NCBI RefSeq assembly: GCF_000190635.1 | Contig: NC_015172.1 | Span: 2,542,001 to 2,606,000 of the forward strand | Direction of reading: 5' to 3' | Length of the DNA: 64,000 nucleotides | Source: Syntrophobotulus glycolicus DSM 8271 | GTDB taxonomy: Bacteria > Bacillota > Desulfitobacteriia > Desulfitobacteriales > Syntrophobotulaceae | Shown here: positions 29,137-49,484 of the stretch, piece by piece | Layout of the letters: each line of letters begins with the position of its first letter | Position numbering within the stretch: position 1 is the first letter of the stretch | Position numbers and translations under genes: made by a program | The notes under the pieces: model-generated | Databases searched by the model: none | Told to the model about the DNA's origin: nothing | What the model saw: only the letters and a program-made list of their open reading frames with translations

Positions 29137-29139
29137 TGA

Positions 29140-29237
29140 TTAACCCTCCAAAAGTTTATTGACGGTGTTCAGCAAAGCGTCTTTACGGATATAACCGGTC
29201 TGCACTCCTGCCCGTCTTTGAAGAAAAGGAGAGCGCC
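29140..29237 (-). pseudogene. Thioredoxin-family C-terminal remnant
   Basis: Two minus-strand frames joined at one shift read ALLFFKDGQE and then VQTGYIRKDALLNTVNKLLEG before a stop. This is the C-terminal strand-helix of a thioredoxin. The active-site part is gone; TusA starts directly upstream. Its tail still carries the GGAGG that serves the ThiS-like gene. Confidence 0.6.
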
Positions 29238-29239
29238 AT

Positions 29240-30338: not shown

Positions 30339-30372
30339 GTTCGTCACCACTTTCCTTTGTTTTTGTTCCCAG

Positions 30373-31416
30373 TCAAAACGCATTGGCAAGCACCGCAACA
30401 CTTTGCCTATGTATGAATTCATTTTGCAGGTAGATGCGCAACGGTTTTTTGTGCCGCCGCTCAATTCTGCCAATCAAGGTTTGCACCGCCACATTGCCGA
30501 TTTCCTGAACCGGCGCCCCCATCGTGGTGAGCATGGGCGATACATACCCGGACAGCTCTATATTATCAATGCCAACGACAGAGACCTGCTCCGGCACCTG
30601 GATCTTGGCGTCTTTCAGGCGGTTCATCAGCGCGATGGCGGAGGTATCGCTGGCGCATAAAACGGCGGTCGGTTTGCTCCCGTCGGCCTTGATCAGTTTC
30701 TCGGCACCCAAGACGCCGCCTTCGCCGTTGTGTTCGCACGGATACACCAGTTCATCCTCAAAAGCGAGATCATGTTTCCGCAAGAAATTTTGATAAGCGA
30801 GAAAACGCACCTCGCTCTCTGTTCCGCCAAGATAACCGATCCGCCTGTGACCCTGCAGGTAAAGATGAGAGAGCGCAATTTCGGCAGCCTCATACGCGTC
30901 ACAGATGACCTGATCCCATTCCGCGTTGATTCTGCCGCGCCCGGCATAGACAATATTGGCGTAATACCGGTTGAGCAGATCAATCGCGCATTTGTTGAAC
31001 TGCCCAATGGCAATCGCGCCGGCCGGTTTGAACGATTCAATTTTTTCCCTGATCACATTTGTCATCAGCTTTTCATTGACGTCGAAAATGGAGTAGGAGA
31101 ACCGAACCGGGTAACCGTGTTCCATGGCTTGCTTCTCAATCACTCTTGAAAGCTGAGATAGAAATGGATTTTCTTCCATGGTATCGGTGCGGCCCAATAT
31201 ACAGCACAGAGAACCGCTGCGCACAGTTTCGCCGCTTTTTTTGCCCTGCTGAAGCTCCCGGGCGCTTTTATTGGGAAGGTAACCGGATTTCTTGACGATT
31301 GCCCAAATCCTGTCCCGAACTTCCTTGCTGGCGAAGCTGTCGTTCCGCGAATTGACCACTCTGGATACGGTTGAAACAGATACGCCCGCTTCTTTGGCGA
31401 TTTCTTTCAGTGTCAC
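30373..31416 (-). CDS. LacI-family transcriptional regulator
   Basis: 347 residues from a GTG at 31416, seven bases after AGGGGGA. Helix-turn-helix TLKEIAKEAGVSVSTVSRVV (residues 2-21), hinge PNKSARELQQ, then a periplasmic-binding-like effector domain (about 65-345). LacI-type palindromes lie just upstream of its own promoter (31489-31502) and of the promoter of the long operon to its right (49475-49484), so it probably regulates both. Sulfite-reductase genes follow after 34 bases. Confidence 0.87.
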   Translation of the reverse strand: MTLKEIAKEAGVSVSTVSRVVNSRNDSFASKEVRDRIWAIVKKSGYLPNKSARELQQGKKSGETVRSGSLCCILGRTDTMEENPFLSQLSRVIEKQAMEHGYPVRFSYSIFDVNEKLMTNVIREKIESFKPAGAIAIGQFNKCAIDLLNRYYANIVYAGRGRINAEWDQVICDAYEAAEIALSHLYLQGHRRIGYLGGTESEVRFLAYQNFLRKHDLAFEDELVYPCEHNGEGGVLGAEKLIKADGSKPTAVLCASDTSAIALMNRLKDAKIQVPEQVSVVGIDNIELSGYVSPMLTTMGAPVQEIGNVAVQTLIGRIERRHKKPLRIYLQNEFIHRQSVAVLANAF

Positions 31417-31450
31417 CGTTCTCCCCCTTTCCTGTTCCATAAACAAAATC

Positions 31451-31502
31451 ATTATACACAACATTTTCGCAAAAACCAAGGGCAATCAGCGCAAATTTGC
31501 GT
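31451..31502 (-). promoter_or_regulatory. Promoter and operator of the LacI-family gene
   Basis: Minus-strand TTGGTT (31474-31479), 17 bases, perfect TATAAT (31451-31456). The palindrome GCGCAAATTTGCGT (31489-31502) lies ten bases upstream of the -35, and a further ACGCAAA half-site follows at about 31504-31511. The 31417-31544 gap holds nothing else. Confidence 0.65.
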
Positions 31503-31544: not shown

Positions 31545-32459
31545 TCAGCGCAAAGGAAGGCAAAATGAACTGCAGATTCTCTTTGCGGTCAGCATAAAAT
31601 CCTCTGAGGGATGAGGATCGCCGCGCAGTAAATATGGTTTGCCTATTGATTGATATTTTTTCACCCCATAGTCATGAAACGGGAGCAGCTCAACCTGAGC
31701 TATGCCTGGTATTTCACTAAGAAAACGCGCAATCGCCGCGATTTCATCCCCTGTATCGTTGATCCCGGCGATTATTGGGATTCTGACCCAAATCTCAGTG
31801 CCGAGAGACGAGAGCCGGCGGAGATTTTCTAAAATTACAGCATTATCTGCCCCGGTGTATTTTTTATGAATTTCGGATGAGAAGGCCTTGACATCGAACA
31901 AAAATAAATCTGCAAAACAGGCGGCATACTCTAGGCTTGAGAAGGGAACGCATCCGGCTGTGTCAAGCGCAACATGAAAATTTTCTTGCTTCAGCTTTGG
32001 CAGGAAATTATGCAGGAAATCAAGCTGCAATAGAGGCTCACCGCCGGAAATTGTCACGCCGCCGCCGGATTCCTGATAATATGGCCGGTCCTTTTTCATG
32101 GTTTCCAATAACTCGGACGACGTCTTCCACTCCCCAACGATAGATAGGGCGTCATATGGGCAGATTTTAACACAGCAGCCGCAAAGGACACATTTCGTTT
32201 GATCGATATTTCCGCAGCTTCGCATTGCGCCGTTCGGGCAGGAAGCGGAGCATAAATCACACTTTTGGCATACCACGTCATCAAATTGAATCTGCGGATG
32301 CATGTCGATGCACTCGGGATTGTGGCACCAGCAGCAGCGGAGATTGCACCCTTTCAGGAAGACGGTAGTCCGTATGCCCGGCCCATCGTTCACTGAAAAG
32401 CGTTGGATGTTTGTTACGAGTGCGCTGACCTCATGCCAATCAGGATCAAAAATTCCCAT
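31545..32459 (-). CDS. Glycyl radical enzyme activase (radical SAM), partner of the 762-residue GRE
   Basis: 304 residues. Radical SAM cysteines C-x3-C-x2-C in GCNLRCCWCHNPEC (about 34-47), then a ferredoxin insert with two 4Fe-4S motifs, CDLCSASCP and CVLCGCCVKICP, and the SAM-binding GGGVTISGGEPLLQ. This is the build of activases of the eliminase-type GREs. It overlaps the GRE gene by 14 bases and puts the radical on that enzyme's Gly. Last gene of the operon. Confidence 0.88.
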   Translation of the reverse strand: MGIFDPDWHEVSALVTNIQRFSVNDGPGIRTTVFLKGCNLRCCWCHNPECIDMHPQIQFDDVVCQKCDLCSASCPNGAMRSCGNIDQTKCVLCGCCVKICPYDALSIVGEWKTSSELLETMKKDRPYYQESGGGVTISGGEPLLQLDFLHNFLPKLKQENFHVALDTAGCVPFSSLEYAACFADLFLFDVKAFSSEIHKKYTGADNAVILENLRRLSSLGTEIWVRIPIIAGINDTGDEIAAIARFLSEIPGIAQVELLPFHDYGVKKYQSIGKPYLLRGDPHPSEDFMLTAKRICSSFCLPLR

Positions 32460-34731
32460 GCTCTGTCCTCGCGATGATTTCGTCCTGTGTTGCGGGCAGC
32501 AGTGAACAAAAATATGCTGAAAATCCCGATACGCGCACGACTAAATTTTTGTACTTCTCGGGCTCACGTTTGGCGGCCAGCAGAGTTTCACTGTTGACGA
32601 CATTGATTTGAATCTCGATTCCGCCGCGGGCAAAGTAGGAATTGATCAAATGGCGCGTCGCCTTGGCGTTCGAAGGATTTTGCAAAAACTGCGGCGAGAA
32701 TTTCAGATCGAGCACCATGCCGTTGCCGGCGCCTGAAATCTCGGCCTTGACGGCGGAATTGATTAATGCAGTAGGGCCGGAGATGTCCTTGCCCTGCACA
32801 GAAGCAAAGCCGTTGGAAAGAGCGGTGCCCGCGAGCCGTCCATCGGGCAGGGCACCGGTAAGATACCCCATTTTGGCGTGATCCTGCACGGTGTACAAAC
32901 CGATACCGTAGGTCCCTCCGCGGCTGTTCTTCCTGCCCTCGGCCTCATCGATAAAGATATCCACAATGTCGCGGACGAATCTATCGACAGCATCATCATC
33001 ATTGCCGTATTTGGGACAGGCGCTGATCAAGCGGAGAAGATGCTCATAGCCTTTATAATCTTGATCAAGGGCAACTGCCAACTCAGACAATGTCATTATT
33101 TTTTCATCAAACACGAGTTTTTTGATCGCGGCGAGCGAGTCGGCCGTTGAAGCGAATCCCCCGCCGTTTAAGACAGAATTATTGTAGATCGGGCCGCCAT
33201 CGGCAACATCGCGTCCCTTTTGAACACAGCCTTTCATTGTGAAAGACAAAAAGGGAGCCGGATACAACCTGCCCCAAAAGCTCTCGATGAGATCGGCGCT
33301 TTCCAGACCGAGGTTAATATAGGCGCGCAGTTCTCGCTTGAACCAGGCATAGAATTCGTCAAAACTTTCCAGGGAATCAAGGTCGTGACTGTTGTGGAGA
33401 GGGAAAACCTCTCCCGTAAGTCGTTGGACGCCGCGGTTGAGCATGAATTCAAGCAGCAGTGGGATATTGATCCTCATGGATTCCGTATTGGAAAAGTCAT
33501 TTCCGCAGCCAGTCAGCTCTACACAGCCCATAACGGCGAAGTTTACGGCATCTTCATGAGACAATCCCTGTCGTTCTTTGACGGCGATGCAAGCCGCATC
33601 GTGAAAAAAGGAAGGAAAGCCGGTGCCGCTTCGCAAGACGTTAAGCGATTCTTCCCAAAGCTCTTCGGGCATATCCGGAGCATAGCGCAGGGCAAGCAGC
33701 GGCTGATCACAGCGCAGGCGCTCAGTTGCCCGCAGGCACATAAGGGTAATGGGGTTGCTGATCAATTCGCCGGAAACCGTCGTCCCGCCAATCGTAACAT
33801 TTTGGTAGCACATCTCGTTGGCAGCAAATTTGAGCCACAAGGCATCGATGATTTCCTGCGCTTCATCCCCGGTAATGTGCCCGGCGGCAAGATCGGCTTG
33901 ATAGAAAGAGTCGAGATATAAATCCAACCGCCCGACGGAGATGACACAGTTTACGGGCATATCAGTGATCAGAACTTCATGCACCAGCCAGACAAGCTGA
34001 ACCGCCTCAAAAAAGCTTTGGGGTGGATTTTTTGAGATATGTTTACAGGCCGTGGATATTTTTAACAGTTGCTTTTTTTCAGAAGGATCCTCAATGCTCC
34101 GGGCAGAATTTTCTGCTTCTTCCGAATATCTCAGGATATAATTTGAGAACGCCTCAGCACAGCGCAGCATGGCGGAGATATAGCTCTTTTCACTATCCGT
34201 ATGCTCTCGGCCCAGTTCGGTTTTCGCCTCATCCTGCAGCGCCTTCAAACCTGAGGTCAAAATGCGCTGCTGGCCGGGGATAATATGCCCGCCGCTGTTA
34301 TGCTTAAACAGCCAGGAATGTACTCCTTTCTGGAAAAAGCGAAGCTTTTTTACCGCGGGATGATGTTCATCGCCGCCGAGATAAGCCTTGATCCGCTCAA
34401 CCTCATCGTCGATGCAGAAAGGGTCGTAGGGAGGGACTTCCGCCGCATTGTAGCTGTCCGGGGTTTTATGCGGATCGGTGAGATCCCAGGAATACTTGTA
34501 AGCGTATCCCGCAAGCACATCACCGGGCAAAACAGATATTTTTTTCTCAGAGAGAAACTCCTCAAAGGCTAAGGCGATTTTTGCAGGGAGATCAAGGGCT
34601 GGGTGCCGGGAAAACACCTTGCCGTACACTTGAGCGCGGTGAGGGATGACTTCGCTGTCGTAAAGCTCATTCCTCATTGCATATAGCCTTTGAATCCGGT
34701 CAGACAGCCCCGGTTTGTTTGCATTGCTCAT
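32446..34731 (-). CDS. Glycyl radical enzyme, eliminase/dehydratase type
   Basis: About 761 residues. N-terminal PFL-like domain, active-site VMGCVELTGCGN (Cys at about 403, Glu at about 405), and glycyl radical motif RVSGFSAYF near the C-terminus (Gly about 736). Cys-Val-Glu is the signature of GREs such as glycerol dehydratase, choline lyase and isethionate lyase that abstract a hydrogen and eliminate a neighbouring group, rather than of PFL itself. Length (about 760) is slightly short for those enzymes. Substrate unknown; GTG at 34734 is an alternative start. Confidence 0.85.
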   Translation of the reverse strand: MSNANKPGLSDRIQRLYAMRNELYDSEVIPHRAQVYGKVFSRHPALDLPAKIALAFEEFLSEKKISVLPGDVLAGYAYKYSWDLTDPHKTPDSYNAAEVPPYDPFCIDDEVERIKAYLGGDEHHPAVKKLRFFQKGVHSWLFKHNSGGHIIPGQQRILTSGLKALQDEAKTELGREHTDSEKSYISAMLRCAEAFSNYILRYSEEAENSARSIEDPSEKKQLLKISTACKHISKNPPQSFFEAVQLVWLVHEVLITDMPVNCVISVGRLDLYLDSFYQADLAAGHITGDEAQEIIDALWLKFAANEMCYQNVTIGGTTVSGELISNPITLMCLRATERLRCDQPLLALRYAPDMPEELWEESLNVLRSGTGFPSFFHDAACIAVKERQGLSHEDAVNFAVMGCVELTGCGNDFSNTESMRINIPLLLEFMLNRGVQRLTGEVFPLHNSHDLDSLESFDEFYAWFKRELRAYINLGLESADLIESFWGRLYPAPFLSFTMKGCVQKGRDVADGGPIYNNSVLNGGGFASTADSLAAIKKLVFDEKIMTLSELAVALDQDYKGYEHLLRLISACPKYGNDDDAVDRFVRDIVDIFIDEAEGRKNSRGGTYGIGLYTVQDHAKMGYLTGALPDGRLAGTALSNGFASVQGKDISGPTALINSAVKAEISGAGNGMVLDLKFSPQFLQNPSNAKATRHLINSYFARGGIEIQINVVNSETLLAAKREPEKYKNLVVRVSGFSAYFCSLLPATQDEIIARTEHGNF

Positions 34732-34776
34732 CACTATCGCCAGCTTTCGTTTGATTTACACAAGAGCTATGATCGG

Positions 34777-35715
34777 TCAAAATGGTGTATCCTCGCCGAT
34801 ATAGCACGCAATCCCCTTTTGGGCGAATATCTCTTTCATTCCGGATAGATCAATAGCGGACGGTTTATCATCATATGGGCTCTCCTTGCCAAGCTGACGC
34901 CACTTGGATTCCCCCAGGCGGTGAAATCGCAGAAGGTTTATTTCCTTTAAATCCAACCCGCTCATAAACCGGGCGGTGGCGGTCATGTTTTCAACGGTAT
35001 CGTTATAGCCTGCAACCATTGGAACCCGTATGATCAGCCGCCCTTGATACCCGCTCCTGGCAAGAGCTGTTATATTGCTGAGAATAGGGGTGTTATCGAC
35101 ACCCGTGCGGGAGTGGTGAAGCGTTGGATCCACATGCTTGATATCGATAAAAGCGAAATCAATCTCATCCATCACCGCCTGAAAAACTTCTTCAGCTGCG
35201 AAAGCCGATGTTTCTATGGCGGTATGGATGTTTTCCCGCTTTAAAATTGGCAAAAGGGAGAGCAGAAATCCGGCTTGCCTGAGCGGTTCGCCGCCGCTGA
35301 AGGTAACGCCGCCGCCTTCTCCCCAAGAACCGCTGTCAATGCGGAGCCGCTCCATAAGCTGGTCTGCGGTGTAATCTTTCCCGCACAGCCTGATCGCGTC
35401 CAGGTGACATACTTCGGTGCAATGAAAGCTGATACAATCCGTGCAAATCCCCCGGTCAATCTGCAACGCCCCGTTTGCCGATCTAAGCGCACCGTGGGGG
35501 CAAGCCTTGACGCAACGGGAACACCCATCCCTGGCACGGCAGTTTTGCTCTGCAAACAAGATTTTACGCTTTGACTCCATGGCTTCGGGATTGGCGCACC
35601 AATCACACTTTAACGGGCATCCGGCAAAAAATATTGTGGTGCGGCAGCCTGGACCGTCATGGGTTGTAAAGCTTTCAATACTGGATATTAACGCTTTATC
35701 CTGGATTTCCATCAT
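34777..35715 (-). CDS. Glycyl radical enzyme activase (radical SAM), HpdA-like
   Basis: 312 residues. Radical SAM motif GCPLKCDWCANPEA (C-x3-C-x2-C, about residues 31-44), then a ferredoxin insert with CSRCVKACP and the unusual CTDCISFHCTEVCHL, and GGGVTFSGGEPLRQ. It overlaps the end of the small-subunit gene by four bases. In the 4-hydroxyphenylacetate decarboxylase operon the order is large subunit, small subunit, activase, the same as here. Confidence 0.87.
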   Translation of the reverse strand: MMEIQDKALISSIESFTTHDGPGCRTTIFFAGCPLKCDWCANPEAMESKRKILFAEQNCRARDGCSRCVKACPHGALRSANGALQIDRGICTDCISFHCTEVCHLDAIRLCGKDYTADQLMERLRIDSGSWGEGGGVTFSGGEPLRQAGFLLSLLPILKRENIHTAIETSAFAAEEVFQAVMDEIDFAFIDIKHVDPTLHHSRTGVDNTPILSNITALARSGYQGRLIIRVPMVAGYNDTVENMTATARFMSGLDLKEINLLRFHRLGESKWRQLGKESPYDDKPSAIDLSGMKEIFAQKGIACYIGEDTPF

Positions 35716-36017: not shown

Positions 36018-38720
36018 CTAAAGCCCACACTCATATTCAGTACGGGAAATGACCTCGTCTTGAATGGGCTTGCTTAATTCACACCAATAGTGGGTGAATC
36101 CTGAAACTCTCACCAGAAGGTCACGGTAATTTTCAGGGTGGCGCTGGGCATCCCGGAGATTGTTGCTGTCCACGATATTATATTGGATGTGGTGACCGCC
36201 CAAGCGCATGTAGGCACGGGTAAGGGCGAGAAGCTTTTTTGTTCCGGCATCTCCCGATATCGCGGTTGGGTGGAGCTTGAGATTGAGCATGGAGCTCTGG
36301 GTATTGGAATGATCCCACACCGTGGCCGACCGGAAGATGGCATAGGGACCGTTTTTATCGGTGCCCGGATAAGCCGACATGGAAGCGTCGGTATAAGTGG
36401 TGCCCGCAAGTCGTCCATCGGGAGTCGCTAAAGTCACACCCCCCTGGGCGTTATGATGGCCGGTGACAAACTGCCCCACTTGGAGTTTCTCGCCGTAGAG
36501 CGTTTCCTTGGATGTCACGATTTGCGGGAACCAATCCTCGTAATCGGCAAGGATCGCATCAACATATGGGTCGGCATTGCCGAATTTGGGAGCGCGGAGA
36601 CAGTCGGCATAAATATCGTCATATTGATCCGAGCCATCCTTCTTGCGGCGGTCAAGTACTGAAAAACTGCCCGATTCCTCGGCGGTATCATAACCGAAAT
36701 TGTGAAGCAGGGCATCGGTTAATTGCTCCAGACTGTATTTCCCTTCCTCAAAAACCAATTTCTTTATTTGTGCCAGGGAATTGACAAACGTAATTGTGCC
36801 GCTGGTTATGGCCAAAAAAGTCGTGTTATAACGGTATCCCTTTTGACCGTTGTGATGGCCGGTTTTTAGGCAGTCAGGCTTCATAAAGGAATTGATAACC
36901 GACATGTTGTTCTTGCGTGTGATGTCAAAATAAAGATTATTAAAGCGCGTGAGAACATCAAGGGCTTTGTCGATATAGGCCTTGAGCTGAGTAAGAAACT
37001 CCTCGTATGAATGAAAAACCCGGTTGTGAGGCGGAAATATCTGCTTTTTAAGATTGTGGTCATAACCGTTGAAGAGGGTCATCTCCAGCATTTTAGGCAA
37101 AGCAAACGGACGAATCCCCCCCATGGTGGTAAGTCCCGCTCCTCCTGGAATTTCATATTTTCTGCCGTTTAAATCGATGGTGTTATAGACCCCCGGAGCA
37201 ATGGCCAGACAGCCTCCCACAGCGGCGGCGGCGGATTCTTCTTCCGTCATGCCCTCATGGCCAAAGTGCTTGACCAGCATCTTCCTAGAGGTTTGATTGT
37301 TGACCCAGGCCGGATATCCCGTGCCTGTCTTGTTGCATTTGGCGCACTGCAGCAGGAAATCCTCGGGCAGTTTCTCATCGTAAAGGCAGGTGATGGTAGG
37401 CTGCGGAGTAGAACAGCGGATTCCAGCCTCCACAAAAAGATATTCAAGACGGTTGACCGCCGGCGAGCCGTCCCTTTTAAGGCCTCCTACCGTGAGATTG
37501 TTATAGGTGTTTCCGGCATTTCCGCCCACGGTATTGGGGGAAGCGAAGATATCCATTGTGGTTAATTTGATTCTCTGCATCTCCAGGAGCTCAATAACCT
37601 CTTCCTCCGTAATTCGCCCCGCCTCGATATCCTGTTCGAACCAGGGATACAAAATCTGACCTAAGCGGCCGGGGGAAACGCCGCAGATCGGATCTTCATT
37701 GGACGCGGCAATATGAAGAGCGTGAAAAAGCTGAAGAGCTTCTCTAAACGTGGAAGGCCGATCAAAGGCGATCTTCCGAAGCGTCTTTCCCAATTCGGAA
37801 TAAATATCGGCGTAGCTTTCCCCTGAATCCTCGACGACATGGCGACGCCGGATCTCATCAGGTAAAGCGCTCTCCCTGGCCGCCAGCTTTTCGGCGAGGG
37901 CGGCATGATTTAAAATCCAAGCCTGAATCCCCCGAATGGCAATGATGACGGCCTGATCATAATAAAATCGGTCCATGCCCAGAACACCGTCTCCATCAGC
38001 CCTTCCGGCAACGGCGTCTCGTTTTTCTTCCAGCAGCTTGACAAGCCCCTCCAAACCATATTGAAAAGGATAATAGAGGTTCATGGTTTCGCGGCCTTGA
38101 ACGATGGTAAAGCCGGCATCATCATAGCTGACCTTTGATTCTTGAATCAAATCCTTGAGCGTCTTATCGGGCACAAACTCCTCCATTTGCCTTGATACCG
38201 CTTCGGCCGAACGGCCGTCCCAGCTTTGGGCAAGCCGCCGATAGGCCGGAAAATCTTCTTTCCTCAGGCCAAATTTTCCCGCCACCGACTTGACCTCTCC
38301 GAAATCGGAGGTGACATTTCCGCCGCCTGTGGCGATCACCCGTTTTCCTCCCGAGAAATTTTCATTCGATCTTGCCAGAAGGAAGCTGTTTTGAATCCAG
38401 GGCATAGCGAAAGAACCCCGGTAATTTTTTGATTTCTGCAGGGCAAGCTTCTCGCCCGGCCATATCGTGGGAGTGAGATGTTCAAAGGCGCTTTTGAGCG
38501 CTTCGGCGCGCCTTATCACGGGAACGGAACCGTCCAATTCATCCCATCGGCGGGTATACCAATACGTGAATTCATTATCCGCCGAGGAAAGAGATTGATA
38601 AAATAACCCTAAAAGCCTTTTGACATTCCCGCCCGTGCCTTCTTTCTCCTCACGAGGTGTATAATCGAATTCGGGCGTGTATGCTTCGGATTTGATCTGC
38701 TTTGCAGCCGTCACCGCCAT
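36018..38720 (-). CDS. Arylacetate-decarboxylase-like glycyl radical enzyme, HpdB-like but lacking Cys-x-Glu
   Basis: 900 residues from the ATG at 38720, eight bases after AGGGGG. Glycyl radical motif RVSGFTHYWCEL with Gly 874; thiyl Cys 504 in VGGCLAIAPG. In 4-hydroxyphenylacetate decarboxylase (HpdB) the pair is Cys 503 and Gly 873 with Glu 505 two residues after the Cys. Length and both radical positions match HpdB closely, but position 506 here is Ala, so that acid is missing. The gene is followed by an HpdC-like subunit and activase, which is diagnostic of the decarboxylase group. The substrate is likely different, for example another arylacetate. Confidence 0.82.
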   Translation of the reverse strand: MAVTAAKQIKSEAYTPEFDYTPREEKEGTGGNVKRLLGLFYQSLSSADNEFTYWYTRRWDELDGSVPVIRRAEALKSAFEHLTPTIWPGEKLALQKSKNYRGSFAMPWIQNSFLLARSNENFSGGKRVIATGGGNVTSDFGEVKSVAGKFGLRKEDFPAYRRLAQSWDGRSAEAVSRQMEEFVPDKTLKDLIQESKVSYDDAGFTIVQGRETMNLYYPFQYGLEGLVKLLEEKRDAVAGRADGDGVLGMDRFYYDQAVIIAIRGIQAWILNHAALAEKLAARESALPDEIRRRHVVEDSGESYADIYSELGKTLRKIAFDRPSTFREALQLFHALHIAASNEDPICGVSPGRLGQILYPWFEQDIEAGRITEEEVIELLEMQRIKLTTMDIFASPNTVGGNAGNTYNNLTVGGLKRDGSPAVNRLEYLFVEAGIRCSTPQPTITCLYDEKLPEDFLLQCAKCNKTGTGYPAWVNNQTSRKMLVKHFGHEGMTEEESAAAAVGGCLAIAPGVYNTIDLNGRKYEIPGGAGLTTMGGIRPFALPKMLEMTLFNGYDHNLKKQIFPPHNRVFHSYEEFLTQLKAYIDKALDVLTRFNNLYFDITRKNNMSVINSFMKPDCLKTGHHNGQKGYRYNTTFLAITSGTITFVNSLAQIKKLVFEEGKYSLEQLTDALLHNFGYDTAEESGSFSVLDRRKKDGSDQYDDIYADCLRAPKFGNADPYVDAILADYEDWFPQIVTSKETLYGEKLQVGQFVTGHHNAQGGVTLATPDGRLAGTTYTDASMSAYPGTDKNGPYAIFRSATVWDHSNTQSSMLNLKLHPTAISGDAGTKKLLALTRAYMRLGGHHIQYNIVDSNNLRDAQRHPENYRDLLVRVSGFTHYWCELSKPIQDEVISRTEYECGL

Positions 38721-38739: not shown

Positions 38740-39753
38740 TTAAGATTTGACCGCGCCTGTAAAAGCTTGCAAATTATCCATCGGCGAGGATGTGGATAAG
38801 CCGCAGGCAGGAGCGATAATATCAATATTCGATTTGATCAGATGCTCCGTGCGGGCTTCGATAGCCTCTTTCTTCCCTGATTCCAAAAGATAGGTGCTAA
38901 GATTCCCCATGGTCAATAGATCGGGATATTCTTCCTTCAGCCCCCTTAAATTGACCATGGCGTCTGTACTGATCACATCGGCATAAAACTCAGGCAGGTA
39001 TTGCTTCACGCTGTTCATATTGCCGCAGATATGGAGAATCACGCTCCTGTCGGCGGCCTGAACGGCCTCGGTCAATTTATTGATATAGCGCACGGCAAAT
39101 TCGGAGAACATTTTGGGCCCCAATATTTCGCCTGTAGCGGTGGGATCGGCGATCGAGATGATATCCGCTCCGCTTTCCAGCAGGGTCAGGGCGTAGGCGA
39201 TCAAAAAATCGGTGACATAATCAAGAACACGGTGCGCTTCAGAAGGTTTTTTCCGAAGCTCTTTCAAAAAAGTCATGGGGTCGACGATCGAAGCCGCCGT
39301 GCTGATGGGACCTGTCAGACTGCAAATCAACGGCAAATCCCCCCCGGATAAAGCCGCGGCAGCATTTGCGATGGTTTCAACCCGCCCCTTTTCCAGCAAG
39401 GCGGGGATATCCCTGTATTCGACCGCCGATACCGAAGGAAAGAGCTCCCTGGCGATTTTAGGCTCACATTCCAGGGTGCCGAAATCGATTTCCGCCCCCA
39501 ATATCTCGGGTTCGATTGTCATGCAAAAGGGCACGCCGATGTTCTCGAAGCCGGTAAGCGAGGCCACCCTTTGCGCCAGAGCGCTCATCAGGAGGGCGTC
39601 GGAATGAGCGGCAGGCAGAACACTCTCCGAATCCCGCATGACATCAACCACTGCGGCATTCATCATGCCGCCGGGACAGATAACGGGCTTACGGTCGATG
39701 GATTTTCGCTTGATCGTTCTGAACAAACGCTCTTTGGGTGATAATTGAGACAT
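38740..39753 (-). CDS. UroD-fold corrinoid/CoM-type methyltransferase 1 (MtaA/MtbA-like)
   Basis: 337 residues. The UroD-like barrel with zinc-site motif HICG (about residue 237) and PACGL (about 317), as in MtaA/MtbA, which use a His-x-Cys-x(n)-Cys zinc to activate a thiol. It lacks the catalytic residues of true uroporphyrinogen decarboxylase. It lies 19 bases before the 900-residue GRE gene and is followed on its other side by a corrinoid protein, so it moves a methyl group on or off that protein. Confidence 0.83.
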   Translation of the reverse strand: MSQLSPKERLFRTIKRKSIDRKPVICPGGMMNAAVVDVMRDSESVLPAAHSDALLMSALAQRVASLTGFENIGVPFCMTIEPEILGAEIDFGTLECEPKIARELFPSVSAVEYRDIPALLEKGRVETIANAAAALSGGDLPLICSLTGPISTAASIVDPMTFLKELRKKPSEAHRVLDYVTDFLIAYALTLLESGADIISIADPTATGEILGPKMFSEFAVRYINKLTEAVQAADRSVILHICGNMNSVKQYLPEFYADVISTDAMVNLRGLKEEYPDLLTMGNLSTYLLESGKKEAIEARTEHLIKSNIDIIAPACGLSTSSPMDNLQAFTGAVKS

Positions 39754-39757: not shown

Positions 39758-40423
39758 TCAAGCTCCTTTATGAGATGAGTCGAACAGCCTGTTCAGCAGT
39801 TTCAAGGCATCGGAGGCATTGGTGGAATAGCCGTCGGCGCCGATCTTATCGGCAAAGCGCTGAGAAATGGGACCACCGCCGATAATCACCTTAAAGTGAT
39901 CACGGATACCCTCCTCCTTGAGCAGGGTGATCACCTCTTCCATGTGCGGCATGGTGGTGGTCATCAGGGTAGAAAGAGCGATGATCTGCGCCCCCGCCTC
40001 CTTGGCCTTATCCACGATGATCCGCGGCGGGATATCCCGGCCCAGATCAATCACCTCATAGCCGCCGGCATCAAGCATAATGCGCACGAGATTTTTTCCG
40101 ATATCGTGGGTATCCCCTTGCACCACAGCGATAACAACCTTTTTCAGATTTTGGCCATCCTCCCGCTCAATATGCGGGGAAAGCACCTGAATGCCGGCAT
40201 CCATGGCATCGGCGCAGAGCATCAGCTCAGGAATAAAATATTCCTCCTCCTCGAACAAATCGCCCGCCCTTCTCATGCCGTCGGACAGGCCTTTGTCTAT
40301 GGCCTCGAAGGGGTCATATCCCTCGTTGATCACTTGGTTTGCGGTATCGCGGGAGATGTCCTCATCCATATCCACAACCGCGTCGGACAGCTTTTGAAAT
40401 AATTCTTCCTTTGCAATCGCCAT
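39758..40423 (-). CDS. Corrinoid (B12-binding) methyl carrier protein
   Basis: 221 residues. N-terminal helical cap domain (about residues 1-90), then a B12-binding Rossmann domain with the base-off/His-on motif GDTHDIGKNLV (Asp-x-His-x-x-Gly, about 101-111) and later STLMTTTM and GGGPIS. MtbC/MtvC-type. GGAGG lies before the start. It accepts a methyl group from one UroD-fold protein and hands it to another. It is the only corrinoid protein in the operon and must serve up to four methyltransferases. Confidence 0.9.
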   Translation of the reverse strand: MAIAKEELFQKLSDAVVDMDEDISRDTANQVINEGYDPFEAIDKGLSDGMRRAGDLFEEEEYFIPELMLCADAMDAGIQVLSPHIEREDGQNLKKVVIAVVQGDTHDIGKNLVRIMLDAGGYEVIDLGRDIPPRIIVDKAKEAGAQIIALSTLMTTTMPHMEEVITLLKEEGIRDHFKVIIGGGPISQRFADKIGADGYSTNASDALKLLNRLFDSSHKGA

Positions 40424-40449: not shown

Positions 40450-41502
40450 TCATGCGATATTTTCATCTTTTTTTCGGCCGGCCAAATGGCTGTATTTGCG
40501 CACCGCGTCAACCATGGCCTTGAGATTTTCTACAGGGATATTGGGAGCAAGGCCGCAGCCGGGTTGAATGATCACTCCGCTTTTATGCTTCAGTCTCTCT
40601 ATCATGGCCTTGATATCACGGTCAACTGTTTCGGGCGTACCTAAAAACAAGGTATTGGCGGGATCCACCCCTCCCGCTACCGGAAAACGGCGGTAAAAAA
40701 TCTTCTGAGCCACCGCAATATCAACCAACTCTGAAAACCAAAAGGAATCGGCCCCGGTATCCTTCATCTGGTCGATGATCGGATACTCGCCGCCGCAGGG
40801 ATGAAACTGAGCAATCAGCCCCGCGTCATGAATACCGCGCAAGAGACGTCCCTGATGAGGGATCACGATATCGGTAAACATTTTGGGCGAAAGCACCGAA
40901 GGACTGCACATGCCGTCCGCCAGCTCAAAAATATCCCCTCCGGCTCTCTTCACTGCCTGGGCCATCCAAATAATGGTGTCCGTTACCTTGTTGCCGATTA
41001 CATCAAAAAAATCTCTGTCGGTGGCCAGGACATTCATCATTTTCTCGACACCCAACAAACGCGATACGGTGTTGAAAACCCCATGACTTGTGACATGATA
41101 CACCACCTCGTCTCCCGCTTCCTTCCGCATAAGGCGGATCTGGTCCAACACCACCTTTAAGTGCGGCTCTGTTTCAGGATCGGGGATTTTAATGGCTTCG
41201 GCCTGCTCTTTGGTGAATATCGCAGCCTCTCCGAACTGATGATGGTCATCGTGGGGGAAATACAGCTTGCAGCCCAGACTCTTCTGAACGGCATACGCGG
41301 TACGAATATTGAAGCAGTCTGCCCGCACCACCTCCCATACCGCCAGCTCGGCTTTGGCCAATGCCTCGGGGTCGTTCAAAATATCCTCGTCAAAATCCCG
41401 GCCGATCAGGCGGGGTCCACTGGCCGCGTCATTGGCAAAGACGGGGATATAATCCACTGGTTTGAATTTGTAGGCGTTGAACACACGCTCACGGGAAGTC
41501 AT
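40450..41502 (-). CDS. UroD-fold methyltransferase 2
   Basis: 350 residues. Opens MTSRERVFNAYKFKPVDYIP, the usual UroD-like beginning. Zinc motif HPCGG (about residue 237) and PGCGLAP (about 315). It overlaps the end of the third UroD-fold gene by four bases. In O-demethylation systems, proteins of this fold act as methyltransferase I, taking a methyl from the substrate to the corrinoid protein. Confidence 0.85.
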   Translation of the reverse strand: MTSRERVFNAYKFKPVDYIPVFANDAASGPRLIGRDFDEDILNDPEALAKAELAVWEVVRADCFNIRTAYAVQKSLGCKLYFPHDDHHQFGEAAIFTKEQAEAIKIPDPETEPHLKVVLDQIRLMRKEAGDEVVYHVTSHGVFNTVSRLLGVEKMMNVLATDRDFFDVIGNKVTDTIIWMAQAVKRAGGDIFELADGMCSPSVLSPKMFTDIVIPHQGRLLRGIHDAGLIAQFHPCGGEYPIIDQMKDTGADSFWFSELVDIAVAQKIFYRRFPVAGGVDPANTLFLGTPETVDRDIKAMIERLKHKSGVIIQPGCGLAPNIPVENLKAMVDAVRKYSHLAGRKKDENIA

Positions 41503-42272
41503 CCTATCACTCCTTCCGACATCTCATAGATCGTTTCCGTTACCTTGATATGGGGGCATTGCCGTCCCACAACCACCCGCCTCCCTCTTTCATAACGCTC
41601 CAAAACCGCGGCCTGATAATCCTTCCCGGGTATAGGATAACCATGATAGAAAGCAAGGCTATATGTTTCCAGGGGCGAAAATGTGAATGGGCAAACATGG
41701 ACAACACCACGCCCGCCCTCCGCAAGGAGGCTTTTCAGGAGCAGCACTTGATATTTGGCCGCGAATCGGCGATGATGTTTTTCACCCAGAACAGCAGGCA
41801 GAGCCTGCATATCACAAAGAGATATCACCTTGACTCCATGGTCAAAAGCCTTTGCCCCATAATCGGCAAGCGCTTCGGTGAGGGATAAAAGCGCCGCTTC
41901 CACCTCGTCAGGATACCGCAGAAGCCATAACGGCAGCCGGGGCGAGCAGACATCACAAAGCAGAGAATAGGGCGCCATCATATTGAGCCAGAGGTTATTT
42001 GCTTCCGCGAGAACGTTCAATGAATCCAGCAGATTTTTTAGTTTTTCCTCAAGAAAATGGCATGGGAGACGGTTCAGTTCTTCATGACAATTGATCAAGG
42101 GGATCACATCTCCGAAACCGCTGACAGTAGGCGTGATATCAGCCCCAAGAAGGCGGGCCTCAAGAGCCGGGGCCCCTTGATAAGTATAAAAGAGGCCGCC
42201 TACTTCCTTTGCGTTTTTTGCCTCATCGGAGCAAAACCGGCTCAAAGCCTCGCGGGTTAATTCAGGATTCAT
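41499..42272 (-). CDS. Short divergent UroD-fold protein 3
   Basis: 257 residues, about 80 fewer than its paralogues. Recognisable UroD-type segments are LPCHFLEEKLKNLLDSLNVL and RYPDEVEAALLSLTEALADYG. The C-terminal zinc-like motif survives in altered form (HVCPFTF and RQCPH). The N-terminal part of the barrel is missing, so it may bind a partner or substrate rather than act alone. Good GGAGAT before the start. Confidence 0.7.
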   Translation of the reverse strand: MNPELTREALSRFCSDEAKNAKEVGGLFYTYQGAPALEARLLGADITPTVSGFGDVIPLINCHEELNRLPCHFLEEKLKNLLDSLNVLAEANNLWLNMMAPYSLLCDVCSPRLPLWLLRYPDEVEAALLSLTEALADYGAKAFDHGVKVISLCDMQALPAVLGEKHHRRFAAKYQVLLLKSLLAEGGRGVVHVCPFTFSPLETYSLAFYHGYPIPGKDYQAAVLERYERGRRVVVGRQCPHIKVTETIYEMSEGVIG

Positions 42273-42282: not shown

Positions 42283-43947
42283 CTAAAAATTCAGTGATTT
42301 TACGAACAGCTTCTCAAAATCCGGGGTGTTGGCAAGCTCAACTTTTTCCACCGATTCCACAAGGGCTTTCATCTGTTCTCGGAAGGTCTTATTGAGCAGA
42401 AAAGCTGCCGCCCCCGATTGGGATGTGTTTCCGATAAAACGCACTTTGCCCTTGAATACACGCGGCAGAAGCCTGATATCGAGGAGGCTCCTCTCGCGCA
42501 GATGATAGCCGAAGGACCCTGCGATCAAAACTTCATCCACCGATTCCGGAGGAACATTCAACTGTTCCAGCAGGGCCACGATTCCGGCGTATACCGCACC
42601 TTTGGCAAGCTGAACCTGTCGGATATCCTTTTGGGTGAGATAGACCTTATCCGTGAGATAAAACGTGGTTTTTCCCTCCGTCAATCTGATCTGCTGTTTG
42701 ATCTTTTCAGAATATCGCGCTTCGCTCTCCTTGACAAACCGTCCGTTTTTGCCTACGATTCCGGTTCGGACAAGCTCACCCACGATATCCAATAGACCGC
42801 TGCCGCATATCCCGATCGGTTCCATTCCCCCAATGGTTTTATAGTTGACATTTCCTTCTTCATCAATGGAGAATTCCTCCACCGCCCCCGGCGCGGCTCG
42901 CATACCACAGGTAATATTCATGCCCTCAAAGGCAGGGCCGGCCGCCGTTGAAGTGGCCGCAAGCTTCCCGTTCTGCGCGACAGCCATCTCGCCGTTGGTC
43001 CCGATATCAATAAAAAAAGTAACACCTTTTCTTTCTGTAAGGCGTGACGCCAATACTCCGGAGGTAATATCCGCTCCCACAAAAGCCGATATGATCGGCG
43101 GCAGGTATATGCTGCCAAAGGGGGAAATGCCCAGCCTTTTCGCAGGCAGATAACTGTTTCCCGAAAGATTGGTGTGATAAGGATAGCTGCCCAAAGGGGT
43201 GGGGTCAATTCCCGCCGCAAGATGAAGCATTGTCGTATTTCCGCTGTAAACGACGTCATAGATATGAGCGGGATTGATCTCCGCTCTTTTGACGAGTCTA
43301 TCTCGCAGTTCAGCGAATGCCCCCAGAAAGGCTTCATATAAAGTTGTCAAGCCATCGTCAGAAGCGAAATGGATGCGGGATAGAACGTCTTGCGCATAAG
43401 CGCTTTGCGGATTAAGCATAGACTCATGGGCGAAATGTTCCCCCGTTTTTAAATTGACCAGTTCGGCCACCAGGGTGGTCGTACCAATATCAAGCGCGAT
43501 ACCGTATACTTCACCCGCCGTATCGCCCGGTTCGCTCCCCAGAGGCTTTCCATCCCCCAAAATAATCGTATTGCGGCCATCAAACTGTTTCGTAACATAA
43601 GGATCCCTATGATAATTGAAAGATTCGCCGCCAGCTAAAATCTGAAGCTTTCTGTTCTCGTCCGCTTTACTTTCCCAAAAAACACCAATATCCTCCAAAA
43701 CAGCGCTTTGACAAGCTAAAACATACCCTTCCTTCTGCTCGATTTCACTCAGCCGGTGAGAACATTCCCTCTCGATCTCGGAATACCCAAGGGGATCGGC
43801 CAACCTGACCTTGCACTTGCCACAAGTACCTACCGCGTTGCAGGGAGCCTCAATTCCAAGGGCCAGCGCACGGGCTGCCTCCAATATAGTCGTACCCTCT
43901 CTTACCTCAATTTGAACGTCTTGATTGATAAATCGAACAACCGGCAC
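42283..43947 (-). CDS. Corrinoid reductive activase (RACE/RamA-like, DUF4445)
   Basis: 554 residues from a GTG at 43947, seven bases after AAAGGTG. N-terminal 2Fe-2S ferredoxin domain (CNAVGTCGKC, C-x5-C-x2-C, and a fourth Cys at about 78), linker, then a long ASKHA ATPase domain with GIALDIGTTTLVAELVNL (about 150-167) and VGADITSGV. RACE proteins use ATP to reduce Co(II) corrinoid back to Co(I) after accidental oxidation. Fits the corrinoid protein encoded nearby. Confidence 0.88.
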   Translation of the reverse strand: MPVVRFINQDVQIEVREGTTILEAARALALGIEAPCNAVGTCGKCKVRLADPLGYSEIERECSHRLSEIEQKEGYVLACQSAVLEDIGVFWESKADENRKLQILAGGESFNYHRDPYVTKQFDGRNTIILGDGKPLGSEPGDTAGEVYGIALDIGTTTLVAELVNLKTGEHFAHESMLNPQSAYAQDVLSRIHFASDDGLTTLYEAFLGAFAELRDRLVKRAEINPAHIYDVVYSGNTTMLHLAAGIDPTPLGSYPYHTNLSGNSYLPAKRLGISPFGSIYLPPIISAFVGADITSGVLASRLTERKGVTFFIDIGTNGEMAVAQNGKLAATSTAAGPAFEGMNITCGMRAAPGAVEEFSIDEEGNVNYKTIGGMEPIGICGSGLLDIVGELVRTGIVGKNGRFVKESEARYSEKIKQQIRLTEGKTTFYLTDKVYLTQKDIRQVQLAKGAVYAGIVALLEQLNVPPESVDEVLIAGSFGYHLRERSLLDIRLLPRVFKGKVRFIGNTSQSGAAAFLLNKTFREQMKALVESVEKVELANTPDFEKLFVKSLNF

Positions 43948-44013: not shown

Positions 44014-45042
44014 TCAATATTTCCCATATTTCTCATGCACCCTGCAAATCGCCCGAATATTCTCCGGCGGAGTATCCCGGGGAACGGAACAATTGGCACT
44101 CAGGATAAATCTTCCGCCTGCCTTGCCGTCCTTTATGCATTGCAGGGCCGCTTCCGCCGCTGTTTCCGTCGTTCCCTGATGGAGCACATCCACTGTGTGC
44201 AGATTGCCGAAGGCCACAACTTTGTCACTGAATCTTTGCTTGAATTCGGATATTGCTATCTCGTCAAAATGGATGATGTCCACATTCTCCTCACAAACCA
44301 GATCCAACCGGTCAGACCAGCAGCCGCAAGTGTGATACATGGTTTTTTTGGCGCCATATTCCTTTAAGGAACCCAAGAACCGCTTTGAATAAGGGTGGAC
44401 AAACTCACGGTAATGCTTTAAGGATATACATTCGGTATTGGCGACAGGATTGGAGGTGTGGATAATATCAGCGCCTCGGTCGATCAAGGCTTTCCCGTAA
44501 GCAATCAGGTTGTCGGTAAGAAAGGAAAGCAGTTCCCTGGCCTCATTCGGATGCCTGATCAAATCGCGGTAGAAATTGGCTTCACCCCTTAGCATACAAG
44601 CTGAACGGAAAGGCTGGGACACCCAGGCAAAGAGCGGTACGTCCGGACCGGCTGCCGCTTTTAGCTTTTGCACAAGCGAAAGCATATAGGGCATCCGCCC
44701 GTCGGTATTGGGATTGACGAGCTTTAATTTATCCAATTCAGCAAGGGATTTTAAAAAAGGATTGTAATCCACGTATGGAGAATCATCCTCCGGAAATACA
44801 AGCTTGGCTCCCAGCGCCTCATCCACCACAGGAACAGCGTTGATATCCCACACCCCGTCTTGATTGAAATCCTGCCTAACCTTGATTTGCGCCCCGATAA
44901 AAGAATCGGGGTCCGTGAAAGCCTGGGAAAGGGAGAATCCGGCATATTTCATGCCGAATTCCCTCGTGCTCAAAAGGAATGGGATGCGGTCGGGCAGCTC
45001 ATGGTTGCAGACCGCCAGTATACGCTCCATAGAAGTCATCAT
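44014..45042 (-). CDS. UroD-fold methyltransferase 4
   Basis: 342 residues. Starts MMTSMERILAVCNHELPDRI. Zinc motif HTCGCW (about residue 230) and ANCSVP (about 313). GGAGAG lies before the start. First of the four UroD-fold proteins in transcription order, just behind the importer genes. It may be the substrate-facing methyltransferase, but sequence alone does not show which of the four is. Confidence 0.84.
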   Translation of the reverse strand: MMTSMERILAVCNHELPDRIPFLLSTREFGMKYAGFSLSQAFTDPDSFIGAQIKVRQDFNQDGVWDINAVPVVDEALGAKLVFPEDDSPYVDYNPFLKSLAELDKLKLVNPNTDGRMPYMLSLVQKLKAAAGPDVPLFAWVSQPFRSACMLRGEANFYRDLIRHPNEARELLSFLTDNLIAYGKALIDRGADIIHTSNPVANTECISLKHYREFVHPYSKRFLGSLKEYGAKKTMYHTCGCWSDRLDLVCEENVDIIHFDEIAISEFKQRFSDKVVAFGNLHTVDVLHQGTTETAAEAALQCIKDGKAGGRFILSANCSVPRDTPPENIRAICRVHEKYGKY

Positions 45043-45054: not shown

Positions 45055-46086
45055 TTATTTCTTATCATATGGATTGTATTCATTGGTATAGATGTCCGAA
45101 GGCTTCACCGCGTCCTTCTTGACAATGCCGTTATCGACCATGAAATCAATCCAGTAAGTTACCATGCTTTCAGGCCACAGACCATAATTTACCAATTTAA
45201 CAGGTTTCCAATACTTGGCCAATTCCGGGTTTTGACCATGCTTCGTCAAGATCTTCTTGACGACTTCCCGCGCTTCATCCGGGTGGGCCTCTGTCCATTG
45301 ATCGGTCTTCACCAGGGCGGCCACCAGCTTCTTGGTTGTTTCGGGATATTTAGCCATAAGATCGCTGTTAATAAAATATCCCCAACCGGAACCCGCAAGT
45401 TCCGGACCCAAGACAGTATAGAGATCGGAGAGTTTTTTTGCGGTGCCGTTTTCAATGAGCTGATCCGCTATTGGGGAACCGTCCACGACCAAATCAGCCT
45501 GTTTGCTTTGGAGCACCTGCTCATGCTGGGCGATCGGAACAACGATGATGTTTACATCGTCTACTGTCAGGCCGCCTTTGGCCAGATACTGACGGGTGAT
45601 GAATTCAAACATGGCACCCTTAGCGCCCAGGGCAATGGTCTTGCCTTTCAAATCCTGCGGGGTTTTAATCGTATCATCATCCGCGCGAATCAATAATTGA
45701 TAACCGGGGTTCTGGTCGCTGCCGATTGCGGGGCCGCCATAGATAACCTTGATGGGGGTGCCCGCAGCAGCCGCGTTGATGAAGGCCGGAATTGCCGCAT
45801 TGCAAATATCGGCCTGACCGCCCGCGATCGCCTGGATGGCCGCCGAACCGCCGCCAGCAAGTCCGGCTTCCTCTACCTTCAAGCCTTCCTCGTCAAAAAA
45901 GCCTTTCTCCAGCGCGATGTCAAAATTTACAATGTCGCCGTAGTTATTGACAATGTAGCGGAGCGTATAGTCTTCTTCTGTTTTGCCCTTACCCGTCGTC
46001 AGAATGACTCCGGCCACAATCGCCACAACGATGACTGCCGCGATCGCGGCGATAACGGTTTTTGTGCTTCTTCTTAATGTTGCCAT
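45055..46086 (-). CDS. ABC substrate-binding protein, SsuA/NMT1 type, membrane-anchored
   Basis: 343 residues. A hydrophobic N-terminal helix (about residues 10-28) with no lipobox Cys, so it is held by an uncleaved or signal-type anchor. Binding fold: YTLRYIVNNYGDIVNFDIAL, AGGGSAAIQAIAGGQADICN and GKTIALGAKGAMFEFITR. This group binds sulfonates, nitrate or aromatic acids. It partners the permease (47711) and ATPase (48484) and brings in the operon's unknown substrate. Confidence 0.85.
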   Translation of the reverse strand: MATLRRSTKTVIAAIAAVIVVAIVAGVILTTGKGKTEEDYTLRYIVNNYGDIVNFDIALEKGFFDEEGLKVEEAGLAGGGSAAIQAIAGGQADICNAAIPAFINAAAAGTPIKVIYGGPAIGSDQNPGYQLLIRADDDTIKTPQDLKGKTIALGAKGAMFEFITRQYLAKGGLTVDDVNIIVVPIAQHEQVLQSKQADLVVDGSPIADQLIENGTAKKLSDLYTVLGPELAGSGWGYFINSDLMAKYPETTKKLVAALVKTDQWTEAHPDEAREVVKKILTKHGQNPELAKYWKPVKLVNYGLWPESMVTYWIDFMVDNGIVKKDAVKPSDIYTNEYNPYDKK

Positions 46087-46102: not shown

Positions 46103-47698
46103 CTAAATAATATTTAATCTTTGGAAATGTGCCATATATTTATTGTCATGGACAAGGCTTTCTTCCCAGGCAAAATATTCCTTTGCCTCTTTCTTGCCAT
46201 ATTCAGAGAGAGGAATATGCCAATCGTCGAGATCAAACCCTGCCGAGCCTTCCTCGAGAGAATATCCTTTTGCCGCCCATGCTGCGCACCCACCCTCAAT
46301 TACTTTGACGTTCCCATAGCCCAATTCAGACAAGGCAACGGCGGCGAATACCGCTTCAATGGGGTCGGCGGCGGTAAGCAGAATGGAAGTGGCTTTCTCA
46401 GGCACTGCCGTGCTGATTCTCTCCTCCAACCTCCCTCTGGGAATCCACCTGCTCTCCTGGATATGTCCCGCGGCAAAATCCCGCCCATAGCTTACATCAA
46501 TGAGAAGGGGAGGATTTTTACCTGAAAGCGACTCCCGGGCCGCTTCGACGCCGAGCAACTCAACTGAGCCTCGATCGCGCTCATCATCCAGATACCGGTT
46601 TGGGGGACTTCCCCGCTCTAATCTGTATCCACGCTCCTTCCAACCATCCAGCCCGTCTTTCAGCACAAAGACATGCGGGAATCCCATTTTGATGTACCAA
46701 TAAGCGGTGATGGCGGAGCGGGTTTCCCCGTCACTCACCAAAACGATATCCGCGCCGCGGACCGGTACGGCATCTTCGGCGTTTTGTATGGCCTGCCCGC
46801 CCGGATAGGACAGGGAATCCGCGATATGCCCCGCTTCATATTCATTTTTTGTGCGCGTATCAATGACATAAAGAGGATTTTTATCTGAATTTTCCTGCCG
46901 GAACTTTAGACCCTCAGGTGAGATCAAAGGAATATGATTGGCCTGAGCGAGCTTTTGCGCCGCCAATTCTGCTTTATTCCGACTGTGAGAAGAAGGAACG
47001 GATGCGGCAGGCATTTCCTTTTGCAGCTCATAGCCCGCCAGAACCCAGCCAAGGGTGCCGTTGGTCAGATCGAGAACCTCTCCCAAACCCAATTTCTTGA
47101 CGGTTGCGGAAGCGATAAAGCCCCGGGTTCTGCCGGCGCAGGTCAATACTACCTTCTTGCCGCGTTCCATATAATCAGATATCGCCGCAAAAAGCTCCAC
47201 GCCCGGGATATTGACCGCCCCGGGTATGCTGCCTGTCTGGTTTACCTCTTCGGCCGGGCGCACCTCAATCACGGTATATCTGGTCAAATATGCATGAAGT
47301 TCTTCGGGGGATATCGGTGTCACATCCTGCCAGATCTCGCCAACAATCTCCCCAAAGGCTTTGCTGGGCACATGCAAGCCCTTAACTTCCGGAAATCCTG
47401 CGGATTTCCAGCCATCAAGCCCGCCTGCAAGGACATAGACATTGGTATAGCCGCCCTTCTCCAGAGTATTGGCGGCACAAAGCGCCCGATTGCCATCTCC
47501 GCTGTATATGACCGTTTTGATTTCCTTATTCGGCACCGATTGAAGAATCTTTCTCTCAAGGGAACGGCGGGAGATAATGGCTGCCCCGAAAATATGGCCT
47601 CTTTCATATTCGCAGCGCTCTCTTACATCAATAAGCGCAAAAAGCTCATCGCTTTCCAGAAGATTGTTCAATTGGGCGGGAGATATTGATTTTGCCAT
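46103..47698 (-). CDS. Four-domain rhodanese protein with one catalytic cysteine
   Basis: 531 residues with four rhodanese-homology domains (about 1-115, 125-235, 255-365 and 375-515). The catalytic loop of domain 2 is TCAGRTRG, with the active Cys. Domain 1 has YSGDGNRA, domain 3 VSDGETRS and domain 4 TAADPIEA, all without Cys. So one domain can carry a persulfide and the rest are structural or regulatory. Start has AAGGAAG six bases upstream. It lies inside the ABC importer genes, unusual for a rhodanese; sulfur of the substrate or of an enzyme cofactor may be handled. Confidence 0.85.
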   Translation of the reverse strand: MAKSISPAQLNNLLESDELFALIDVRERCEYERGHIFGAAIISRRSLERKILQSVPNKEIKTVIYSGDGNRALCAANTLEKGGYTNVYVLAGGLDGWKSAGFPEVKGLHVPSKAFGEIVGEIWQDVTPISPEELHAYLTRYTVIEVRPAEEVNQTGSIPGAVNIPGVELFAAISDYMERGKKVVLTCAGRTRGFIASATVKKLGLGEVLDLTNGTLGWVLAGYELQKEMPAASVPSSHSRNKAELAAQKLAQANHIPLISPEGLKFRQENSDKNPLYVIDTRTKNEYEAGHIADSLSYPGGQAIQNAEDAVPVRGADIVLVSDGETRSAITAYWYIKMGFPHVFVLKDGLDGWKERGYRLERGSPPNRYLDDERDRGSVELLGVEAARESLSGKNPPLLIDVSYGRDFAAGHIQESRWIPRGRLEERISTAVPEKATSILLTAADPIEAVFAAVALSELGYGNVKVIEGGCAAWAAKGYSLEEGSAGFDLDDWHIPLSEYGKKEAKEYFAWEESLVHDNKYMAHFQRLNII

Positions 47699-49422: not shown

Positions 49423-49484
49423 ATTGTGCAATAAAATCATCTCCCTGTCAATAGTTTTTTGCTGTAAATTCACGCAAACGTTTG
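49423..49484 (-). promoter_or_regulatory. Promoter and LacI-type operator of the long methyltransferase/GRE operon
   Basis: Perfect minus-strand -35 TTGACA (49446-49451), 17-base spacer, weak -10 CACAAT (49423-49428). Upstream of the -35 is ACGCAAACGTTTGAGT with the palindrome CAAACGTTTG (49475-49484), the classic LacI-family pattern with central CpG. The ATPase start is at 49320. Confidence 0.65.

Follow-up and report, generated by a model that had tools for sequence, protein, structure and literature searches.

A descendant of 4-hydroxyphenylacetate decarboxylase lacking both family acids is encoded among corrinoid methyltransferase genes in Syntrophobotulus glycolicus

The window analyzed here, a stretch of 64,000 nt from the genome of Syntrophobotulus glycolicus DSM 8271 (NC_015172.1, positions 2,542,001 to 2,606,000), encodes a glycyl radical enzyme (GRE) that belongs to the lineage of 4-hydroxyphenylacetate decarboxylase (HPAD) but lacks both acids of that family, in an operon with an ABC importer and a corrinoid methyltransferase system. 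We estimate a probability of roughly 40% that this HPAD descendant was recruited to a pathway for the uptake and demethylation of organosulfur or organoselenium compounds. What the sequences support directly is the descent from HPAD, the loss of the acids, the remodeling of the pocket, the conservation of the gene partners and the type of zinc site in the methyltransferases. The pathway, the substrate class and a decarboxylation are what we infer, the link to sulfur being drawn indirectly, via the zinc-ligand rule described below, the neighboring genes and the family of the transporter. All statements on the clade as a whole refer to its three known members.

By far the best match of the GRE among solved structures is HpdB of Clostridium scatologenes (PDB 2y8n; E 1e-261; 48% identity). 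The initial annotation had described a protein of 900 residues with a thiyl Cys504 and a glycyl Gly874, which was confirmed by a check of the open reading frame and the positions. It had also pointed to an Ala two residues after the Cys, where HpdB has Glu505, and this observation holds: the alignment with 2y8n is gapless at the Cys loop (GGCLAIAPG in the GRE, GGCLESAPG in HpdB), with Cys504 aligned to Cys503 and Ala506 to Glu505 (Cys504, Ala506 and Gly874 are located within VGGCLAIAPGVY and LVRVSGFTHYWC). The same alignment excludes a catalytic Cys located elsewhere and followed by Glu, a possibility that had been raised together with these claims.

The replacements extend well beyond this single Ala. 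The active site of HPAD (HpdBC/CsdBC; PDB 2y8n, 2yaj) has been published as comprising Arg223, Ser344, Gly345, Phe405, Cys503, Glu505, Gly532, His536 and Glu637 (PMC4979209). In the GRE, Ile638 is found at the place of Glu637, the second acid, which takes the phenol proton in HPAD; Cys346 is found at Ser344, Tyr406 at Phe405, Arg537 at His536 (Arg or Leu within the clade), and Asp200 at Phe214. In addition, the strand 750-754 is rewritten, from ISVST in HPAD to FVTGH, and the pocket gains Ile638 and Phe751. Shared with HPAD are the thiyl Cys, the glycyl Gly and Arg223, which are kept in all three clade members. The Gly532 position says little because it is variable (Gly or Ser) in ordinary HPADs too. 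Arg537 was considered as a new carboxylate-binding residue and was ruled out, Leu being present in both relatives. An AlphaFold2 model of the GRE, built from 12 sequences, had a mean pLDDT of 66.7, with values under 50 across the active-site loops 199-210, 345-347, 390-406, 529-535 and 749-811; these values are too low, and therefore neither a reading of the pocket nor a fold search was taken from the model.

The HPAD-like subunit composition is intact. The adjoining genes for an HpdC-like subunit and an activase, as already annotated, were verified with NCBIfam equivalog models, and the activase is of the HPAD type. In the small subunit, H8, C11, C24, C38, C47, C50, C63 and C81 each fall on a cluster ligand of chain B in 2y8n; the two [4Fe-4S] ligand sets that are a feature of HPAD are present, with all eight positions conserved.

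Relatives were sought in one scan of 84,980 species genomes and in about 1900 whole-genome searches, in which some genomes were covered more than once. Altogether, some forty HpdB relatives were recovered, and only two of them share the Ala at the Glu505 place, namely, those of Acetitomaculum ruminis DSM 5522 (L005; 63% identity to the GRE) and of a genome of the same family, G335 (L033; 63-65% identity; G1304 and G335 appear to be one assembly). Both orthologues read GGCLAVAPG and have Asp, Cys, Tyr and Ile at the changed places of the GRE. Because these two genomes share the Ala, Ala506 is not a chance or sequencing oddity. No further members were found in the roughly 1900 genome searches, repeats included. 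In the remaining relatives, nearly all with identities of 47-57%, Glu505 is kept throughout, and Glu637, His536, Ser344 and Phe405 are kept where covered (one relative is a fragment ending before 637), with the exception of L017 (40% identity), in which Glu505, Ser344 and Phe405 are kept, Glu637 is replaced by Trp and His536 by Asn. In the tree, the three members group together with 100/100 support, nested within the HPAD radiation on a long stem of 0.58 changes per column, with L017 and other GREs falling outside (97/99). Since the clade is nested inside the HPADs, both acids were lost within this lineage.

Other pocket variants were encountered in these searches. L017 (L017:10001-12691) is an HpdB-like protein of the Acidobacteria 'Tolsyn' MAG, a bin name that suggests toluene synthesis; its matched frame as cut has two internal stops. 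The HpdB relatives in L034 (G288) and L072 (G1592) keep both Glu residues and have Cys at Phe214, and the 753-758 loop is changed in L034; G288 and G1592 each also have a second, ordinary HPAD.

That the chemistry or the substrate differs from that of HPAD had been concluded from the Ala. Taken by itself, a missing Cys-x-Glu acid would be no proof of this because phenylacetate decarboxylase has Gln at this position (PMC9248008). Glu637 and the rest of the pocket are lost as well, and these changes are shared by all members of a distinct clade whose operon also differs; thus, a different chemistry or substrate is now well supported, and a known decarboxylase with Cys-Leu-Ala was not among anything found. 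The best explanation would be that phenolic arylacetates are no longer substrates of the GRE.

The GRE gene is part of a run on one strand that extends from position 49320 to 30373 and in which no gap exceeds 67 bases (Table 1). The run begins with the ABC transporter, the rhodanese and the substrate-binding protein, followed by four UroD genes with those for RACE and the corrinoid protein among them, and continues with the GRE, HpdC and its activase, a second GRE (GRE2) with its activase, and a LacI-family regulator. A perfect palindrome, CAAACGTTTG, is located at 49475-49484, just upstream of the promoter-like site. It is the sole copy in the window even at one mismatch and could be the operator for the LacI regulator, whose gene closes the operon. 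A search of the window for riboswitches gave none. The LacI gene is directly followed, at 27687-30437 (-), by genes for a sulfite reductase-like protein, a TusA-like and a ThiS-like protein (both assigned by eye, the latter ending in GGGR), ThiF and a Prok-JAB protease in a row. This module and the rhodanese of the operon, both present in the window only, are in line with a sulfur theme.

Table 1. Features of the GRE operon and its upstream region. Positions refer to the window; percentages are amino acid identities.
Feature	Position	Strand	Remarks
Strong terminator-like hairpin	49613-49580		upstream of promoter-like site; consensus match only
Promoter-like TTGACA-17-CACAAT	49423..49451	-	ahead of run; consensus match only
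ABC transporter ATPase	48484..49320	-	47-49% to both other loci; first gene of run
ABC transporter permease	47711..48484	-	44-47% to both other loci
Four-domain rhodanese (sulfurtransferase)	46103..47698	-	window only
ABC transporter substrate-binding protein, NMT1/SsuA family	45055..46086	-	
UroD342, third full-length UroD-family methyltransferase	44014..45042	-	His-Cys-Cys; 23.5% to MtaA; window only
Corrinoid reductive activator, RACE/RACo type	42283..43947	-	
Short UroD-like protein	41499..42272	-	HxC and late Cys
UroD350, UroD-family methyltransferase	40450..41502	-	25.6% to MtaA; His-Cys-Cys; beside GRE in 3/3 genomes (47-49%)
Methyltransferase corrinoid protein	39758..40423	-	65% to Acetitomaculum orthologue
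UroD337, UroD-family methyltransferase	38740..39753	-	MtaA-like; 30.7% to MtaA 4ay7; His-Cys-Cys zinc site
HpdB-like glycyl radical enzyme (GRE)	36018..38720	-	900 aa; Cys504/Gly874; Ala506 and Ile638 replacing Glu505 and Glu637
HpdC-like small subunit, 87 aa	35712..35975	-	NCBIfam equivalog; aligned with 2y8n chain B
Glycyl radical activase, HPAD type	34777..35715	-	NF033717, 485 bits (cut-off 420)
Second glycyl radical enzyme, GRE2	32446..34734	-	Cys404-Val-Glu, Gly737; window only
Activase for GRE2	31545..32459	-	
LacI-family regulator	30373..31485	-	end of run

The methyltransferase genes resemble a type of gene cluster, mlp, whose published definition combines a corrinoid protein and a RACE with two or more UroD proteins that exceed 25% identity to a soluble CoM methyltransferase, and requires that no gene for a tetrahydrofolate methylase lies close by (Kountz and Balskus 2023, PMC10418091). 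In the window, both UroD337 and UroD350 exceed 25% identity to MtaA (4ay7), and the corrinoid protein and Ram/RACE are encoded on the same strand within 2 kb. No pterin-binding family that would indicate a tetrahydrofolate methylase was detected among the main ORFs scanned from 18.2 to 63.9 kb (the published definition requires that none is present within 20 kb). According to the same study, His-Cys-Cys zinc sites are those of S/Se methyltransferases, and in O-demethylases one or both of the zinc-site Cys residues are replaced, mostly by carboxylates (PMC10418091). UroD337, UroD350 and UroD342 alike have His-Cys-Cys, which, by this rule, marks the UroD set as being of the predicted S/Se methyltransferase type. 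Aromatic O-demethylation of methoxylated arylacetates by the UroD set was also considered and was put aside, as all full-length zinc sites are His-Cys-Cys, not the carboxylate-bearing O type. Judged by the published description, the locus is like the type 1 mlp gene clusters in its two UroD proteins, corrinoid protein and RACE on one strand with His-Cys-Cys; unlike these clusters, the run includes a GRE with its subunit and activase as well as an ABC importer. The word 'glycyl' is absent from the main text of PMC10418091, and among open-licence PMC papers, none was found that describes a GRE together with mlp-type methyltransferases.

The association is conserved in the two other genomes. In Acetitomaculum, a single run comprises the ABC importer, GRE, HpdC, UroD350 (47%), the corrinoid protein (65%), UroD337 (67%), RACE (47%) and the activase. 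In G335, the importer, GRE, HpdC, UroD350 (49%) and the activase are found together, and the corrinoid protein, UroD337 and RACE are on another contig (L070:8037-11395), beside an aspartokinase and a homoserine dehydrogenase; these neighbors hint at homocysteine as the methyl acceptor. Altogether, the ABC importer, HpdC, the activase and UroD350 are present at all three loci, as is a short UroD-like frame near the GRE, and the corrinoid protein, RACE and UroD337 (66-67% identical between the window and both other genomes) are part of the GRE operon in two of the three genomes. A UroD, corrinoid protein or RACE was found at none of 17 ordinary HPAD loci, flanks included. Judged by this distribution, the GRE clade is linked specifically to the methyl system. 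Inside the GRE operon of both sisters, there are also genes for a HAD-type hydrolase and a choline-kinase-like protein (L005:12839-15183, L037:119-2431) that are absent from that of the window.

How might such a system work? The activase would form the radical on Gly874, from which it would pass to Cys504, the large subunit being stabilized by HpdC as in HPAD. An organosulfur or organoselenium acid would be imported by the ABC system and then acted on by the GRE. HPAD-family enzymes convert X-CH2-COO- to X-CH3 (PMC9248008); most likely, the GRE would carry out the same conversion on a carboxymethyl thioether, thiol, sulfonium or selenium analogue. The product could then donate its methyl group to the UroD enzymes with His-Cys-Cys, and the UroD/corrinoid/RACE set would transfer the S- or Se-methyl group to another thiol. 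As no acid is available at the Glu505 or Glu637 place, the proton-coupled Kolbe mechanism of HPAD would not be usable, and hydrogen abstraction from the CH2 group would be more likely than a Kolbe route. A CH2 beside S or Se is activated for such an abstraction, so that a phenol base would not be needed. Asp200, which is conserved in the clade, may, as a guess, suit a cationic or hydrogen-bonding ligand. This specific scheme, in which a GRE without both family acids decarboxylates a carboxymethyl S/Se compound and a dedicated corrinoid system demethylates the S-/Se-methyl product, is tentative and, taken with all its details, rather unlikely. If true, both the reaction and the resulting anaerobic salvage route for organosulfur or organoselenium compounds would be previously unknown. 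The type strain has been reported to grow only on glyoxylate and glycolate (PMC3156405); therefore, the route may serve the supply of sulfur or selenium, or be silent.

The gene context would be equally suitable for a GRE that acts as a C-S or C-Se lyase on a methylthio or methylseleno compound, the thiyl radical initiating the cleavage, with the released methanethiol or methylselenol being demethylated by the UroD/corrinoid set. Cleavage of C-S bonds is common among GREs, and homologues of the C-S-cleaving MarHDK have been reported as non-core genes of mlp clusters (PMC10418091). However, the Cys-x-Glu acid that is present in known eliminating GREs is lost here, and elimination is not performed by the relatives of HPAD. 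An eliminating role would be better suited to the adjoining GRE2, which has Cys-Val-Glu; this enzyme lacks a close solved relative, is about equally distant from diol dehydratase, CutC, HypD and others, and was not found in the two sister loci. We consider such a lyase unlikely.

Alternatively, the GRE might decarboxylate a non-phenolic arylacetate, phenylacetate-like or substituted, and the methyl system would either strip a methyl group elsewhere on the imported molecule or be co-regulated for some other reason. Known enzymes provide partial precedents. Indoleacetate decarboxylase (IAD) keeps the first acid and is without Glu637 (PMC9248008, PMC6181972), as the GRE is without this second Glu, and phenylacetate decarboxylase PhdB, compared here by its description, is likewise without Glu two residues after the Cys, although the residue is Gln in PhdB and Ala in the GRE (PMC9248008, PMC6181972). 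The gain of Ile638 and Phe751 in the pocket is compatible with such a substrate. In contrast, IAD requires the Cys-x-Glu acid, the E502Q mutant being dead (PMC9248008), and the GRE differs from IAD in having Ala506 there; it also scores 575 bits with the NCBIfam IAD model NF033718, below the cut-off of 1100. Moreover, the changes of Phe214 to Asp and of Phe405 to Tyr suit a more polar ligand. On balance, a non-phenolic arylacetate is a similarly improbable substrate.

Automated annotation would assign the unchanged HPAD activity. The NCBIfam HPAD equivalog NF033715 (cut-off 1150 bits) accepts all three proteins, with 1200 bits for the GRE and 1320 and 1313 bits for the others (window 36018-38720 (-), L005:9980-12616 and L036:13236-15875 were scored), and HpdC and the activase are retained. 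Nevertheless, the two canonical HPADs tested score 1594 and 1645 bits, and none of the three members retains either mechanistic acid or the residues that bind the phenol, so that an enzyme that still decarboxylates 4-hydroxyphenylacetate and merely tolerates the changes is very improbable. The HPAD label of the three proteins is thus probably a misannotation, and a higher cut-off of NF033715 may separate them from HPAD. As far as can be judged from sequence, the GRE is not to be filed as an HPAD, though it shares the HPAD radical machinery. Finally, addition of the substrate to fumarate is likewise very improbable: the small HiPIP-like subunits of X-succinate synthases do have a fold related to that of HpdC, and these enzymes have a Cys-loop oxyanion hole (PMC12358834), but the GRE shares 48% identity with HpdB and resembles BSS or MasD only distantly, and the sole new candidate for a conserved active-site Arg, Arg537, is Leu in both relatives.

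Taken together, the sequence, the tree and the operon agree that this lineage has probably left the HPAD reaction, for which automated annotation would predict p-cresol as the product. GREs catalyze reactions of which few other enzymes are capable. The recruitment of an HPAD descendant to organosulfur or organoselenium demethylation would link GRE chemistry with corrinoid methyl-S/Se clusters, for which few donors have been identified, two fields that were not linked in the papers found. If confirmed, the GRE would be a decarboxylase-fold enzyme that naturally dispenses with the Cys-x-Glu acid and would provide a direct test of the need for that residue. New substrate classes of GREs (those involving skatole, toluene, TMA and sulfide) have each opened a pathway.
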